The notes under the pieces: model-generated
The model's input: only the letters and a program-made list of their open reading frames with translations
Database searches by the model: none
What the model was told of the DNA's origin: nothing
Position numbers and translations under genes: made by a program
Source of the DNA: Flavobacteriales bacterium
GTDB taxonomy: Bacteria > Bacteroidota > Bacteroidia > Flavobacteriales_F > PHOS-HE28
DNA length: 64,000 nucleotides
NCBI GenBank assembly: GCA_013360395.1
Contig: JABWBQ010000001.1
Location: 1-64,000, forward strand
Direction of reading: 5' to 3'
In this document: positions 1 through 7,480 of the stretch, one piece after another
Layout: each line of letters begins with the position of its first letter
Numbering within the stretch: the first letter of the stretch is position 1

Positions 1-760
1 GGGCGAGGGCCATCCAGGCGAGCAGCGGCCAGCCGTCCCAGACGGGAGCACCCGGGAAGCCACGCTGACACCGGCGCCGGCGCCCGTGTGACTGTTCGCC
101 CAGGGGGGCGGTACCTCCCGGTGGGCCCCGCCCGGCAACAGCCCGCCATTCCGTGCCTCTCTGCCTGCGTCTCCGGACAGGCGCGTCGTTGCGCCGCTGG
201 AACGCCTGGCGCGCCCGTTGCTTCTCCTTTCCACAGGCGTTCTTTCCGACAACGGCAAACCCGTCGCGAGACGGGGACGCAAAGCCACGGACCAGGCAAC
301 GGGCCTGGTGGCCGGGTTACCGAAGAAAGGAGCCGCAGTCATGGTCCGCAGCCGTGCCGGGTCCCGGGTGGTCCTCCTCACCGTCGTGGCCCTCCTCCTC
401 GCCGTGACGGGCGGCTCCGCCGCCGGGCAGACCGCCAAGGGGCCCTTCGCCTTCCACTACGCCAGCACGCTGAGCGACGCCGAGCTGCAGTGGCTCAGCC
501 GGTTCGAGGTCGTGGTCCCGGGGGACATCCTGCCCGCGGCCCAGGTCAGCGCCCTCCGGGCGGCCGGCGCCAAGCTCTTCTTCTACGAGTGGGCCACGGG
601 GCTGTACATCGACGACCCGACCCGGCTCGCCCCGGGCTCGTGGGAGGCCACGGTCTGGGCCAATCGTGCCCGATGGCTGCTGAATCCCGACGCTCCGGAC
701 GCGGGCCCGGATGGCCGCTGGCGCACCTACTACTACGACCCGGCCCCCGCCGACCTCCGC
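1..760. other. Probable foreign or chimeric left-edge segment
   Basis: Positions 1 to about 760 do not behave like the rest of the window. They hold a cyclic-di-GMP-I riboswitch, a Shine-Dalgarno-led gene start and a secreted beta/alpha protein, while neighbouring genes use Bacteroidota -7 boxes and weak or no Shine-Dalgarno sequences. The segment ends inside an open frame, where a TIM-barrel-like sequence turns abruptly into the C-terminal half of MiaA. In positions 1-217 I see no gene I can support. The most economical reading is a metagenome assembly misjoin; a genuine recombination is possible. Confidence 0.6.
246..326 (+). promoter_or_regulatory. Cyclic-di-GMP-I (GEMM) riboswitch
   Basis: The aptamer hallmarks occur in order. 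GGCAAACC is at 254-261. A stem CCCGTC/GACGGG closes a GNRA-type GCGA loop. The core GGGACGCAAAGCCACGG follows, then a P3 hairpin built on CCAGG/CCTGG, and finally the GGGTTACCGA segment that docks back. The start codon at 341 lies just downstream, with AAAGGAG at 326-332. Sequence CTCCTTTC at 224-231 is exactly complementary to GAAAGGAG at 325-332, so a Shine-Dalgarno-sequestering alternative fold is possible. Class I c-di-GMP aptamers are typical of Clostridia, Deltaproteobacteria and relatives, and I know of none in Bacteroidota. Confidence 0.85.
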
Positions 761-1216
761 GCCGCCCGGATCGACCGGCACAACCCGCAACGTGTGCTGC
801 GCGCCCTGGAGGTGTGCCTGGTGACCGGCAGGCCCTTCAGCGCGCAACACCACGCCCCTCGCGACCGGACCGACCTGCGCATCGTGCGCCTGGCGATCGG
901 GCTGCCACGACCGCACCTCTACGCCCGCATCGACCACCGTGTGGACGCCATGATGGACGCCGGGCTGCTCGAGGAGGCGCGTGGCCTCCTGCCCCACCGC
1001 CACCGCAACGCCCTGAACACCGTGGGCTACAAGGAACTGTTCCGGCACTTCGACGGCGCGCTCACCCTGGCGCAGGCGGTGGACCTGATCAAGCAGCACA
1101 CGCGGAACTACGCCAAGCGCCAGCTCACCTGGTTGCGCCGCGAACCCGCCTGGCGCTTCCTCCACGGTGAGGGTCCGCCCCCCTTGCTGGAGCAAGCCCT
1201 GCACGCCCTGGGTTGA
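341..1216 (+). CDS. Chimeric ORF: secreted beta/alpha protein N-terminus fused to MiaA C-terminus
   Basis: The 291-residue frame starts at ATG 341, chosen for its Shine-Dalgarno sequence. Residues 1-29 are a signal peptide. Residues about 34-136 resemble the first strands and helices of a TIM-barrel glycoside-hydrolase-like protein (FAFHYAS, VVVPGDI, LFFYEWATG). From about residue 141 the sequence is the C-terminal half of tRNA dimethylallyltransferase: RIDRHNPQRVLRALEV at 143-158, NTVGYKE near 227 and the RQLTW segment near 260. MiaA's P-loop half is absent, so this ORF cannot make active MiaA. A signal peptide on a tRNA enzyme makes no biological sense. The junction falls between about nt 737 and 766. 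Probably an assembly chimera; a truncated miaA is the native part. Confidence 0.75.
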   Translation: MVRSRAGSRVVLLTVVALLLAVTGGSAAGQTAKGPFAFHYASTLSDAELQWLSRFEVVVPGDILPAAQVSALRAAGAKLFFYEWATGLYIDDPTRLAPGSWEATVWANRARWLLNPDAPDAGPDGRWRTYYYDPAPADLRAARIDRHNPQRVLRALEVCLVTGRPFSAQHHAPRDRTDLRIVRLAIGLPRPHLYARIDHRVDAMMDAGLLEEARGLLPHRHRNALNTVGYKELFRHFDGALTLAQAVDLIKQHTRNYAKRQLTWLRREPAWRFLHGEGPPPLLEQALHALG

Positions 1217-1467: not shown

Positions 1468-3513
1468 TTGCCCTACCAGCTCGTCTCCGACTTCAAGCCC
1501 ACGGGCGACCAGCCCGAGGCCATCCGCCAGTTGGTGGCCGGGGCCCGGGAGGGCGTGCCCTTCCAGACCCTGCTGGGCGTCACCGGGTCCGGCAAGACCT
1601 TCACCGTGGCCAACGTGATCGCCGAACTGGACCGGCCGGCCCTGGTGTTGAGCCACAACAAAACGCTGGCCGCACAACTGTACGGGGAGTTCAAGCACTT
1701 CTTCCCGCACGACCGGGTGGAGTACTTCGTGAGCTACTACGACTACTACCAGCCCGAGGCCTACCTGCCCACGACCAACACGTACATCGAGAAGGACCTC
1801 AGCATCAACCAGGAGATCGAGAAGCTGCGGCTGAGCGCCACCAGCGCCCTGCTGAGCGGCCGGCGCAATGTGATCGTGGTGGCCAGCGTGAGCTGCATCT
1901 ACGGCATCGGCAACCCCGCCGAGTTCCACCGTAGCGTGGTGGAGGTGCGCGCCGGCCAGAAGGTGAGCCGCAACAAGCTGCTGCTGCAGCTGGTGGAAGC
2001 GCTGTACAGCCGCAGGGACACCGAGCCCGTGCGCGGGCAGTTCCGTGTGCGCGGCGACGTGGTGGAGGTGTACCTGGCCTATGCCGATGAAGGGTTGCGC
2101 ATCCACTTCTGGGGCGACGAGATCGAACGGCTGGAGCGCTTCGACATCCAGGGCGGCCGCACCATCGAGGCGGTGGACCGCACCACCATCTATCCGGCCA
2201 ACATCTTCGTGACCAGCCGCGACACCATGACGGCCGCGCTGCGGTCCATCCAGGAGGACTGCGAACGGCAGACCGGATTCTTCAAGGACCAGGGCCGGCA
2301 CTTGGAGGCCAAGCGGCTGGAGGAACGCACCCTGTACGACCTGGAGATGATGCGCGAGCTGGGCTACTGTTCAGGCATCGAGAACTACAGCCGCTACTTC
2401 GACCGGCGCCAGCCGGGGCAGCGCCCCTTCTGCCTGATCGACTACTTCCCGGAGGACTTCCTGCTGGTGATCGACGAGAGCCACGCCACCGTGGGCCAGG
2501 TGCGGGCCATGTACGGCGGCGACCGCAGCCGCAAGCGCAACCTCGTGGAATACGGCTTCCGCCTGCCCAGCGCGATGGACAACCGGCCGCTGACCTTCGA
2601 GGAGTTCGAAGGCATGATGGGCCAGGTCATCTTCGTGAGCGCCACCCCCGCCGACTACGAGCTTCAGCGCAGCGAGGGCGTGGTGGTGGAGCAGGTGGTG
2701 CGCCCCACCGGCCTGCTGGACCCCCCCATCGAGGTGCGCCCCAGCAGGGACCAGATCGACGACCTGCTGCGCGAGGTGCGGCTGCGCGAGCAGCGTGGCG
2801 AGCGGGTGCTGGTGACCACCCTCACCAAGCGCATGGCCGAGGAACTGAGCACCTTCCTGGCCCGCCACGGCGTGAAGTGCAAGTACATCCACAGCGAGGT
2901 GGAGACCCTGGAGCGCATCGAGATCCTGCGGCAGCTGCGCCTGGGCCTCTTCGACGTGCTGGTGGGCGTGAACCTGCTGCGCGAAGGCCTCGACCTGCCC
3001 GAGGTGAGCCTGGTGGCCGTGATCGACGCCGACAAGGAAGGATTCCTGCGCAGCGACCGCAGCCTGACGCAGACCGCCGGCCGCGCCGCGCGCAATGTCA
3101 ACGGCCTGGTGATCTTCTACGCCGACACCGTGACCGAGAGCATGCGGCGCACCATGGAGGAGACCGAGCGCCGCCGCGCCAAGCAGATGGCCTACAACGC
3201 CGAGCACGGCATCACCCCGCGTCCCATCAAGCGCGACCGGCACGACGTGATCCAACAGACCGGTGTGCTGGAGGCCAGCGAGCGTGTCCCCGCCAGGGCC
3301 TATGTGGAGCCCGAGGCCCTCAGCCTGGCCGCCGACCCCGTGGTGGCCTATATGACCGCCGACCAGCTCGATGCGAACTGCCGCATCCTGGAACAGGAGA
3401 TGCGCAAGGCCGCCAAGCAGCACGACTTCATCCAGGCCGCACAACTGCGCGACGAGCTCTTCGCGATGCGCAAACTGCTGGAGGAACGCCAGCAGGCATC
3501 CAACCCCGGCTGA
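1468..3513 (+). CDS. uvrB: Excinuclease ABC subunit UvrB
   Basis: UvrB is the damage-verification helicase of nucleotide excision repair; it is loaded by UvrA and recruits UvrC. The 681-residue protein is full length for the family. It shows Walker A GVTGSGKT at about 37-44, the aromatic damage-probing hairpin YYDYYQPEAYLP near 90-101, the DESH helicase box, the TAGRAARN motif VI, and a C-terminal UVR coiled coil that contacts UvrC. The start is TTG 1468, because translation from there gives the canonical MPYQLVSDF opening; the nearby ATG at 1458 is out of frame. It stands alone, with the next gene 60 bp downstream having its own promoter-like box. Confidence 0.97.
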   Translation: MPYQLVSDFKPTGDQPEAIRQLVAGAREGVPFQTLLGVTGSGKTFTVANVIAELDRPALVLSHNKTLAAQLYGEFKHFFPHDRVEYFVSYYDYYQPEAYLPTTNTYIEKDLSINQEIEKLRLSATSALLSGRRNVIVVASVSCIYGIGNPAEFHRSVVEVRAGQKVSRNKLLLQLVEALYSRRDTEPVRGQFRVRGDVVEVYLAYADEGLRIHFWGDEIERLERFDIQGGRTIEAVDRTTIYPANIFVTSRDTMTAALRSIQEDCERQTGFFKDQGRHLEAKRLEERTLYDLEMMRELGYCSGIENYSRYFDRRQPGQRPFCLIDYFPEDFLLVIDESHATVGQVRAMYGGDRSRKRNLVEYGFRLPSAMDNRPLTFEEFEGMMGQVIFVSATPADYELQRSEGVVVEQVVRPTGLLDPPIEVRPSRDQIDDLLREVRLREQRGERVLVTTLTKRMAEELSTFLARHGVKCKYIHSEVETLERIEILRQLRLGLFDVLVGVNLLREGLDLPEVSLVAVIDADKEGFLRSDRSLTQTAGRAARNVNGLVIFYADTVTESMRRTMEETERRRAKQMAYNAEHGITPRPIKRDRHDVIQQTGVLEASERVPARAYVEPEALSLAADPVVAYMTADQLDANCRILEQEMRKAAKQHDFIQAAQLRDELFAMRKLLEERQQASNPG

Positions 3514-3573
3514 GATCCGGCGGGGGCGGCAACCTTCCGGGTGCTACTTTGCGCCTCCAGTTGCGCACCCACC

Positions 3574-5148
3574 ATGAAACATCCTTTACAGAGCACCTTC
3601 GCACTCCTCGCTTTCCTGACCACCGCGCCGCTGGCCGCCCAGCTCGAGTTCGGCGGCCATCCCTACGGACTTGACCGCGCGCTCCATGGCCTGCCCGAGC
3701 CGCCGGTGGTGGTGATGGGCCTGGTGGACCCCGCCCCGCTGCTGGCCGAGGACGCGGCCCGTCTGGCCGCCGGCATGAAAGGCCCCTGGCGCTACGGCGT
3801 GAACCACCCCACCGACCTGCGCCTGGACAACAGCGGCGTGTGGACCGCGCTGCCCAACGGCGACCAGGTGTGGCAGCTGGCCATCGAATGCCCCGGTGCG
3901 CTGAACGTGAGCTTCGTGTTCGACGAATACATCGTCCCCGAAGGGGCCCGCGTGTTCGTGCATGTGCCCTCGGGCGAGCAGCTCGGCGCTTTCACGGCGG
4001 CGAGCAACGGCGGGCGGCACGTGATGGGCGTTGCGCCCATGCCCGGCGACCGGATCGTCATCGAGTACATCGAACCGGCCGCCGTGGCCGGCCAGGGCCA
4101 CCTGCACATCGGCGAGGTGACCCACGGCTACCGCGACATCCTGAACGTGACCAAGGACCTGGGCGACAGCGGTGCCTGCAACAACAACGTGATCTGCCCC
4201 ATCGGCGACCCCTGGCGCAAGCAGATCCGTTCCGTGGCCCGGATCTTCGGCAGCGGCTTCCTGTGCACCGGCCAGTTGCTGAACAACTGCAACCAGAACG
4301 GCACCCCCTACTTCCTTACGGCGAACCACTGCACCCAGGGCGGCATCAACCCGGCCTCCGCCGTGTTCCGCTTCCGCTGGGAGAGCCCCACCTGCACCCC
4401 CACGCAGAACGGCCCCACGAACATGAGCCTGAGCGGCGCCCAGCAACTCGCCAACAACGCGGGTTCGGACATGGCGCTCCTGGAGCTCAACACCACCCCG
4501 CCCGACGCCTGGGATGTGTACTACTCGGGCTGGAACAAGACCAACACCCCGGCCACCAGCGTGACGGCCATCCACCATCCCTCGGGCGACATCAAGAAGA
4601 TCTCCATTGAACAGCAGCCCGTATCGGCGCAACCCTTCAGCGGCGCCCAGTGCTGGCACATCGCGGCCTGGGACGACGGGACCACCGAGGGCGGTTCCTC
4701 CGGCAGCGGGCTGTGGGACCAGCACGGCCTGCTCGTGGGCCAGCTCTACGGAGGGCAGGCCAGCTGCAGCTACAACTTCAATGACTACTACGGCCGCTTC
4801 GACGTCAGCTTCCCGCATATCGACCAGTTCCTGGGCAACTGCGGCGACACCTTGACCGGCTTCGATCCGGGCGCCACCGGGCTGTCCGAGCAGGAAGGGA
4901 CCTTCACCTTCGGGCTGGTGCCCAACCCCACCACGGGCGCCGTGCTGGTGACCCTGCCCGAGCGTGGTGCGGGTGTGGCCGTGCTGCGCGTCACCGACGC
5001 CCTGGGCCGCGTGGTGGCCGAACGGAACCTGGTCGCCGGCACGGTGCGGACCACGCTGGACCTCGACGGCCAGGCCGACGGGCTCTACCTCGTGGAGCTC
5101 CGGCAGGACGGGCACCGCGTGGTGCAACGTCTGGTGCTGGAACGCTGA
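3574..5148 (+). CDS. Secreted trypsin-like (lysyl endopeptidase-type) protease with T9SS tail
   Basis: This 524-residue exported serine protease starts at ATG 3574, 23 bp after a TACTTTG box. A signal peptide (ending near LAAQ) precedes a propeptide-like region. The chymotrypsin-fold catalytic domain begins near DSGACNNNVICP. The triad is visible: His252 in TANHC, Asp299 in GSDMALLEL and Ser376 in GGSSGSGLW, the arrangement of Achromobacter lysyl endopeptidase (family S1). The last ~80 residues (from VPNPTTGA) are a type A T9SS sorting domain, so the enzyme should cross the outer membrane by type IX secretion. The neighbour downstream is a clear paralogue. Substrate preference cannot be read with confidence. 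Confidence 0.9.
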   Translation: MKHPLQSTFALLAFLTTAPLAAQLEFGGHPYGLDRALHGLPEPPVVVMGLVDPAPLLAEDAARLAAGMKGPWRYGVNHPTDLRLDNSGVWTALPNGDQVWQLAIECPGALNVSFVFDEYIVPEGARVFVHVPSGEQLGAFTAASNGGRHVMGVAPMPGDRIVIEYIEPAAVAGQGHLHIGEVTHGYRDILNVTKDLGDSGACNNNVICPIGDPWRKQIRSVARIFGSGFLCTGQLLNNCNQNGTPYFLTANHCTQGGINPASAVFRFRWESPTCTPTQNGPTNMSLSGAQQLANNAGSDMALLELNTTPPDAWDVYYSGWNKTNTPATSVTAIHHPSGDIKKISIEQQPVSAQPFSGAQCWHIAAWDDGTTEGGSSGSGLWDQHGLLVGQLYGGQASCSYNFNDYYGRFDVSFPHIDQFLGNCGDTLTGFDPGATGLSEQEGTFTFGLVPNPTTGAVLVTLPERGAGVAVLRVTDALGRVVAERNLVAGTVRTTLDLDGQADGLYLVELRQDGHRVVQRLVLER

Positions 5149-5170
5149 ACCACCACCGCATCCATCATCC

Positions 5171-5196
5171 GGAAGGCGACCGCGGGGTCGCCTTCC
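5171..5196 (+). terminator. Hairpin terminator between the protease genes
   Basis: A perfect 11-bp inverted repeat, GGAAGGCGACC and its complement, encloses a four-base loop and is followed by a short pyrimidine run. It lies 23 bp after the first protease stop and before the promoter of the second, so it should insulate the two paralogues. Confidence 0.75.
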
Positions 5197-5214
5197 GCCT
5201 TTCCGGGCCGCCCG

Positions 5215-5222
5215 TACCTTTC
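5215..5222 (+). promoter_or_regulatory. -7 box of the second protease gene
   Basis: TACCTTTC, one base off TAnnTTTG, lies 47 bp before ATG 5270 and just after the terminator hairpin. Confidence 0.4.
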
Positions 5223-5269
5223 GGCAACGCCGCGACCGTTCCGCTCGTCCTTCCATCGAACCCCGCAGC

Positions 5270-7480
5270 ATGCACCGGACCACGACCCTGCTCGGCCTGC
5301 TGGCCGCCCCCCTGCTCGCTCACGCCCAACCCGCCTTCGGAGGCCGGCCCTACGGGCTCTCGGCCCCCAAGCACGGACTGCCCGCGCCGGCATTGGTGAC
5401 CCTTCCTGCGGTGGACGTGGCCGCACGCCAGGCCGAGGATGCGCTCCACGCCCAGCAGGGCCGGCCGGGGCCGGCGCGGTTCGGCGTCGTCCATCCCACG
5501 GCCTTCGACCTGCAGCACCACGGCAGCTGGCACACCGTCCCCGACGGCACGCGCGTCTGGCAACTGTCCCTGCACTGCCCGGGCGCCGTGGCCGTCGGTG
5601 TCACCTTCACGGAGTTCCGCATCCCGGAAGGGGTGCGGGTCTTCGTGTACGACCCGCAGGGGCCGTACCGCGGCGGCTTCACGGCGGCCAGCGCCCCCGG
5701 GATGACCAGCATGGGCACCCTGCCCCTGGCGGGCAACACCGTGGTGGTGGAAGTGCAGGGACCCGCATCGGTGGCCGGCCTCACCCGGCTCACCATCGGC
5801 GAAGTGGTCCATGCCTATCGCGATCCCTTCGGTGGCGCCAAGGGCTTCGGCGACAGCGGCGCATGCAACATCAACGTGATCTGCCCGGACGGCGACCCCT
5901 GGCGCGACCAGATCCGCAGCGTGGCGCTGATCATGGCCGGCGGCGGAAGCTGCACGGGCCAGCTGCTGAACAACTGTGCCGAGGACGGCACACCCTATTT
6001 CCTCACCGCCAACCATTGCGTGAGCGGCAGCACGGCCAACTGGGTCTTCGTCTTCAACTGGGACAGCCCCACGTGCACGCCCACCAACAACGCGCCCGAC
6101 AACCAGACCGTGGCCGGCAGCACCCTGCTGGTGAACGATCCGGGCACCGACGTGGCCCTGCTGGAACTGAGCGCGGCTCCACCGGACAGCTTCAACGTCT
6201 TCTATTCCGGCTGGGACAACAGCGGCGCGGTGCCGGACAGCCTGGTGGGCATCCACCACCCGCGTGGCGACATCAAGAAGATCAGCTGCGAGCTGGACCC
6301 GCCGGTGCAGGCCACCTTCGGCAACCCGCCCGCGCAGTGCTGGCAGGTGCAGACCTGGGAGCACGGCACCACCGAACCCGGCTCCAGCGGCAGCGGCATC
6401 TGGGACCAGAACAAGCGGTTGGTGGGCCAGCTCTTCGGCGGCCAGGCCGATTGCAGCAACAGCGTGAACGATTACTACGGCCGCTTCGACCTCAGCTGGC
6501 CCCTGCTGGAACCCCATCTGGGCAACTGCGGCCCCACCCTGGACGGCTGGGACCCCAACGGCACGGTGCCCACCACCAACGATGCGGCGGTGACCGCCAT
6601 CTTCGACCTGCCCGAACAGCTCTGCGGCCTGGACAGCATCACGCCCTACGTGACGTTGAAGAACAACGGCACCGCCGTGCTCACCGCCGCCACCCTGCTG
6701 GTGGCGCTCGACGGGGGCACGCCCGCCCAGCTGCCCTGGAGCGGCACCTTGCAGCCGGGGCAGACGATGAACGTTCCCGTCGGCACCATCCCCGTCGGCA
6801 ACGGCACGCACACGCTCACCGTGGCCAGCAGCATGCCCAACGGCCTGCCGGACGGCAACCCCGCCAACGATGCCAGCAGCAAGGAGTTCCTCGTGGCCTT
6901 CCCCGCGCAGGACGTCACCATCCTCCTGACACTGGACGCCTGGGGCAGCGAGACCACCTGGGAGCTCACCACGGACCAGGGCGCGGTCCTCGATGCCGGC
7001 GGCCCGTACGCGAACGGCGTGCCCGGCCAGGAGGTGGACCTCACCTACTGCCTGGGGGATGGCTGCTACGTGCTGTGGATCGCGGACGTGGCCGGCGATG
7101 GCATGTGCTGCGCGTATGGCAACGGTGGTGCCGAGGTGCTGGACGAGGACGGTGCGCTGCTCGGGGAGAGCGACGGCACCTTCACTGACCTGGAGGAGAT
7201 CACCTTCTGCATCACGGGCACCGGGATCGCCGACCGGGAAGCCGCCCCGGCCATGCGCCTCTGGCCCAACCCGGCCGACCGATGGATCACCGTGCATTGC
7301 CCCTGGGCCGAACGGATCAGCGTGCTGGACCTGACGGGCCGCCCGGTGACGGACCTGGCCGTGCGCGCCGGCGACGTGCAGCACGAACTGGACCTCGGCA
7401 CTTTGGCCTCCGGTGGATATCTGGTGGCGTGCGCGGGCGGCGGCCTCCGGCGTACGCTTCCGCTGCTCGTGCAGCGCTGA
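5270..7480 (+). CDS. Secreted trypsin-like protease paralogue with CARDB-like extension and T9SS tail
   Basis: A 736-residue paralogue of the preceding protease, with the same opening (FGGRPYGLSAPKHGLPAP), propeptide and catalytic domain. The triad is His249 (TANHC), Asp294 (GTDVALLEL) and Ser373 (GSSGSGIW). After the catalytic domain come two extra modules. Residues about 437-545 form a CARDB-like beta-sandwich (DAAVTAIFDLPEQLCG to NDASSKEF). Residues about 546-650 form a cysteine-containing beta module (ILLTLDAWGSETTWEL, GDGMCCAYGNGG). A T9SS sorting tail follows (MRLWPNPADRW onward). The tandem arrangement and matching signal peptides indicate gene duplication followed by domain gain. It should act outside the cell or on its surface. 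Confidence 0.88.
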   Translation: MHRTTTLLGLLAAPLLAHAQPAFGGRPYGLSAPKHGLPAPALVTLPAVDVAARQAEDALHAQQGRPGPARFGVVHPTAFDLQHHGSWHTVPDGTRVWQLSLHCPGAVAVGVTFTEFRIPEGVRVFVYDPQGPYRGGFTAASAPGMTSMGTLPLAGNTVVVEVQGPASVAGLTRLTIGEVVHAYRDPFGGAKGFGDSGACNINVICPDGDPWRDQIRSVALIMAGGGSCTGQLLNNCAEDGTPYFLTANHCVSGSTANWVFVFNWDSPTCTPTNNAPDNQTVAGSTLLVNDPGTDVALLELSAAPPDSFNVFYSGWDNSGAVPDSLVGIHHPRGDIKKISCELDPPVQATFGNPPAQCWQVQTWEHGTTEPGSSGSGIWDQNKRLVGQLFGGQADCSNSVNDYYGRFDLSWPLLEPHLGNCGPTLDGWDPNGTVPTTNDAAVTAIFDLPEQLCGLDSITPYVTLKNNGTAVLTAATLLVALDGGTPAQLPWSGTLQPGQTMNVPVGTIPVGNGTHTLTVASSMPNGLPDGNPANDASSKEFLVAFPAQDVTILLTLDAWGSETTWELTTDQGAVLDAGGPYANGVPGQEVDLTYCLGDGCYVLWIADVAGDGMCCAYGNGGAEVLDEDGALLGESDGTFTDLEEITFCITGTGIADREAAPAMRLWPNPADRWITVHCPWAERISVLDLTGRPVTDLAVRAGDVQHELDLGTLASGGYLVACAGGGLRRTLPLLVQR

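Follow-up and report, generated by a model that had tools for sequence, protein, structure and literature searches.

The open reading frame at the left end of contig C127 raises the question of whether a secreted protein under c-di-GMP control has been fused to half of a tRNA-modifying enzyme, or whether the assembly has joined two organisms inside a gene. The frame lies on the + strand, with its ATG at 341 and its stop codon ending at 1216, and is continuous across the join. The window (the whole stretch of DNA analyzed, 64 kb) begins at position 1 of C127, a contig of 145,387 nt; C127 and a second contig, C31, belong to a Bacteroidota assembly of 3.68 Mb in 139 contigs. In all likelihood, the first ~760 bases of C127 are a misassembled tip and not a biological fusion, because C31 and C127 have edges that cut one gene ~90 nt apart, and at one of these edges lies a segment with no counterpart in relatives. 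The features on which the argument depends are as follows.

1–760, + strand: segment probably foreign and attached to the edge of C127, judged from its single copy, its absence from relatives and its GC content; the right boundary is uncertain (~755–775)
224–231, + strand: possible anti-Shine-Dalgarno arm CUCCUUUC, complementary to GAAAGGAG at 325–332, which would enclose the aptamer
245–325, + strand: c-di-GMP-I-GGC riboswitch aptamer (RF03167, 70.1 bits, E 1.5e-14)
326–332, + strand: Shine-Dalgarno sequence AAAGGAG of the foreign gene start, 8 nt before ATG 341
341–760, + strand: first ~140 codons of a donor secreted protein, possibly GH114-like, truncated by the join; signal-peptide-like start, judged by eye
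755–775, + strand: probable junction, codons for LRAARID, from alignment with same-genus MiaA
761–1216, + strand: C-terminal half of the host's own miaA (IPPT and TIGR00174 matches; same-genus identity)
1233–1394, − strand: DUF6728 protein, genuine contig body (PF20498, E 9.6e-14)
1468–3513, + strand: uvrB, genuine contig body (UvrB domains)

Two unlike parts in one frame

The first-pass annotation had described a frame of signal-peptide type that turns into the C-terminal part of MiaA, and separate searches of the two parts, which it had proposed, bear this out: the C-terminal part is MiaA, and the N-terminal part matches no family. Residues 140–268 correspond to positions 112–243 of the 243-position IPPT profile of Pfam (E 2.4e-41). 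The model for MiaA, tRNA dimethylallyltransferase (TIGR00174), matches over its positions 146–285 of 288 with 108 bits, a score that stays below the cut-off of 148.65 as expected, since the N-terminal half of the protein is missing. By both profiles residues 140–291 are a normal C-terminal half of MiaA, with 58–73% identity to MiaA of the same genus; unlike a whole MiaA, the protein has its P-loop half encoded on another contig. That the P-loop half is missing had been pointed out earlier, correctly for the frame in the window but not as a loss from the genome, since the half is present on C31.

Downstream of the frame the content of C127 is that of a Bacteroidota contig, including the DUF6728 protein and trypsin-like proteins that carry sorting domains of a secretion system at their C-termini. 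Two adjoining genes at 3541–7480 each encode a large secreted protein of trypsin-like type that ends in a secretion sorting domain (PF18962), the tail match of the second lying just under the Pfam cut-off; the pair looks like a tandem duplication.

Residues 1–140 have no Pfam match at E≤1 and no NCBIfam match, and nothing credible was found for residues 1–135 among PDB sequences. Structure prediction for residues 21–135, made without an alignment, gave a mean pLDDT of 47 and is not usable. Searches for relatives returned only chance-level matches for residues 1–135 in genome contigs and plasmids, and for residues 1–140 in viral contigs, in 49 genomes with similar aptamers, and in the phyla of the genomes labelled Rokubacteria (95 genomes) and Chloroflexi (400 genomes). 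The phylum of the genome labelled Acidobacteria (397 genomes) yielded no close relative of residues 1–140, but it includes a GH114 protein (locus L158) with weak similarity. Since unrelated proteins reach similar scores, GH114 is a lead only; the GH114 family of Pfam (PF03537) is not matched by residues 1–140.

Alignment with same-genus MiaA places the beginning of homology at AARID, with A141 at nt 761, so that the break probably falls at about nt 755–775, within the codons for LRAARID. The two-part frame, as first described, stands, and the break proposed at 737–766 moves slightly downstream. The DPA-coding stretch suggested earlier as the shared motif does not line up with the LDP of real MiaA, being shifted by ~4 residues, and LRAARID is the more likely site of the join.

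The other half of miaA

A search of the same genome with TIGR00174 gave exactly two partial matches and no whole one. Model positions 146–285 lie at C127:758–1168 on the + strand, and positions 2–114 at C31:8–346 on the − strand, reading off the contig edge. The N-terminal half of MiaA on C31 (1–364, − strand) has a clean start and the P-loop GGPTASGKT, and it ends together with the contig, the edge encoding MTGGTLVVVGGPTASGKT up to residue 121. A pRiA4b-like gene lies directly upstream. Because there are only the two partial matches, and the N-terminal half stands at the edge of C31, these are taken as a single native miaA interrupted by an assembly gap, with one half at an edge of C31 and the other at an edge of C127. 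The host's miaA is thus very probably intact, merely split between C31 and C127.

The relatives are in agreement. The window frame is matched in 37 of 39 of them, and only from residue 139 on, the matches starting at residues 139–145 except for two short extra ones. No match reaches into the N-terminal segment, and residues 1–138 have no counterpart in the 39; homologues carrying the same fusion architecture, which the first-pass annotation had named as the observation that would speak against a chimera, were not found among them. The N-terminal and C-terminal halves are adjacent and co-oriented in all 19 same-genus loci examined, and 18 of these were extracted as one open frame consisting of the N-terminal half, ~30 residues and the C-terminal half. 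The nineteenth (L017) was missed by the motif filter, and the search of relatives gives an open frame of 318 aa there. The same alignment of MiaA leaves about 29–31 residues between the end of C31 and residue A141 of the window frame, so that within miaA ~90 nt separate the edge of C31 from the break in C127. A pRiA4b-like gene is found upstream of miaA in 18 of the 19 loci, whereas DUF6728 and uvrB do not occur within 1.5 kb of miaA in the relatives; since only the upstream neighbor is conserved, synteny backs the C31 side alone.

The end of C31 and the start of C127 have no 15-mer in common. They share the 13-mer CTGTACATCGACG (602–614 of C127), which codes for LYID in both and is at about chance level for sequences of these lengths.

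Probable assembly error and its alternatives

The arrangement resembles an interspecies chimeric contig, as produced by metagenome misassembly, in that homology switches abruptly within a gene at the edge of C127, in the position of the missing miaA half at the edge of another contig, and in the presence of a segment that is absent from relatives (no N-terminal segment in the 39 relatives, and no aptamer above the RF03167 cut-off on any other contig of 147 genomes). The assembly very probably broke inside miaA, leaving codons 1–121 at the edge of C31, codons from ~150 on C127, and the ~90 nt between them unassembled. The end of C127 would then have been continued in error with reads from a second organism of high GC content that has a short GC-rich stretch, approximately LRAARID, in common with the host. 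In that organism the added sequence would be an ordinary c-di-GMP-I-GGC riboswitch and the start of the secreted-protein gene under its control. That the join was made at a short shared word, and that the tip is of foreign origin, is inferred. Of the two readings offered by the first-pass annotation, a contig edge joining two organisms at a short motif is the one that the N-terminal half on C31 and the whole miaA of the relatives favor, and they favor it strongly over the recent capture of a c-di-GMP-controlled gene start.

A real and recent rearrangement, in which the riboswitch-controlled start of a secreted gene from another phylum integrated into miaA and disrupted it, would have brought a c-di-GMP-I-GGC aptamer into a Bacteroidota lineage that is otherwise without it. 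The continuous frame over the join would fit such an event, as would a codon usage compatible with that of the host; the codon usage of nt 341–745 cannot be told apart from that of the host, but this comparison is uninformative because host and tip are both GC-rich. The N-terminal half would, however, have to run into a contig edge ~90 nt from this site by coincidence, and an unrelated edge would fall within 100 nt and in the required orientation with a probability of ~0.4%. Relatives have miaA as a single intact gene, and the ~760 nt in question form the outermost part of a contig, a place where misassembly is to be expected. A rearrangement is therefore very unlikely.

A mixture of strains, in which only part of the cells have an insertion in miaA and the assembler broke at the variant site, would account for both contig edges within miaA. 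It is nevertheless slightly less probable still than a rearrangement. The 760 nt show no mobile-element gene, and what would have been inserted is the start of a gene, preceded by an aptamer that is not known from relatives. For a functional bifunctional protein, combining a secreted domain with the C-terminal domain of MiaA under c-di-GMP control, the open frame speaks and nothing else. Such a protein would be missing the P-loop half of MiaA, its architecture is without homologue in the 39 relatives, and a secreted tRNA-modifying enzyme is biochemically implausible; this reading has next to no probability. If the tip is misassembled, as seems by far the best explanation, C127 gives no ground for reporting either a c-di-GMP riboswitch in this Bacteroidota lineage or a secreted MiaA fusion.

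The tip and its riboswitch

Bases 1–760 are present once in the genome, and the GC content of the tip, 0.726, is high for the contig (98.6th percentile among the window's 745-nt stretches). The cyclic-di-GMP-I aptamer that had been recognized in front of the frame is confirmed by a full-length RF03167 match (model positions 1–80 of 80) above the gathering score of 59, the sole Rfam match within the window; in a covariance-model check RF01051 also matches, at 244–324 with 72.2 bits. The class assigned at first reading is thus retained, and the subclass is corrected to GGC.

Just upstream of the aptamer, 224–231 is a perfect 8-nt complement of the Shine-Dalgarno region. In the minimum-free-energy RNA fold of 215–349, which is only moderately better than shuffles (z −1.48), this arm pairs with 325–332, including the Shine-Dalgarno sequence, and encloses the aptamer region. 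The predicted pairing suggests a translational expression platform in the donor.

Among 147 genomes, scanned with stricter filters that lose some weak matches, RF03167 scores above its cut-off on C127 only. A 27.4-bit match in a same-genus genome (L147, G041:C87:8275–8386) lies below the cut-off and is probably due to chance. As an exact pattern, the aptamer core occurs on at least 120 contigs, nearly all of which, among the matches listed, are labelled Actinomycetota, Chloroflexi, Rokubacteria, Bacillota, Acidobacteria, Planctomycetota and others. Among the same matches the next gene often has a signal-peptide-like or pilin-like start, judged by eye. Because the aptamer is widespread in other phyla and often precedes secreted proteins, the tip reads as an ordinary riboswitch-controlled start of a secreted gene from some high-GC bacterium. 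It resembles many of the core-motif loci in having a full-length aptamer followed by a Shine-Dalgarno sequence and a gene start of secreted type. Unlike other RF03167 loci, the window aptamer has its real gene cut off after ~140 codons and sits in a genome bin whose relatives are without the aptamer.

One exact match to the aptamer core is on a contig labelled Ignavibacteria (L111, VBOC01000060.1), whose GC content is 0.606, compared with 0.565 in a second contig from its genome; it may be a misbinned contig or a true case in the wider Bacteroidota group.
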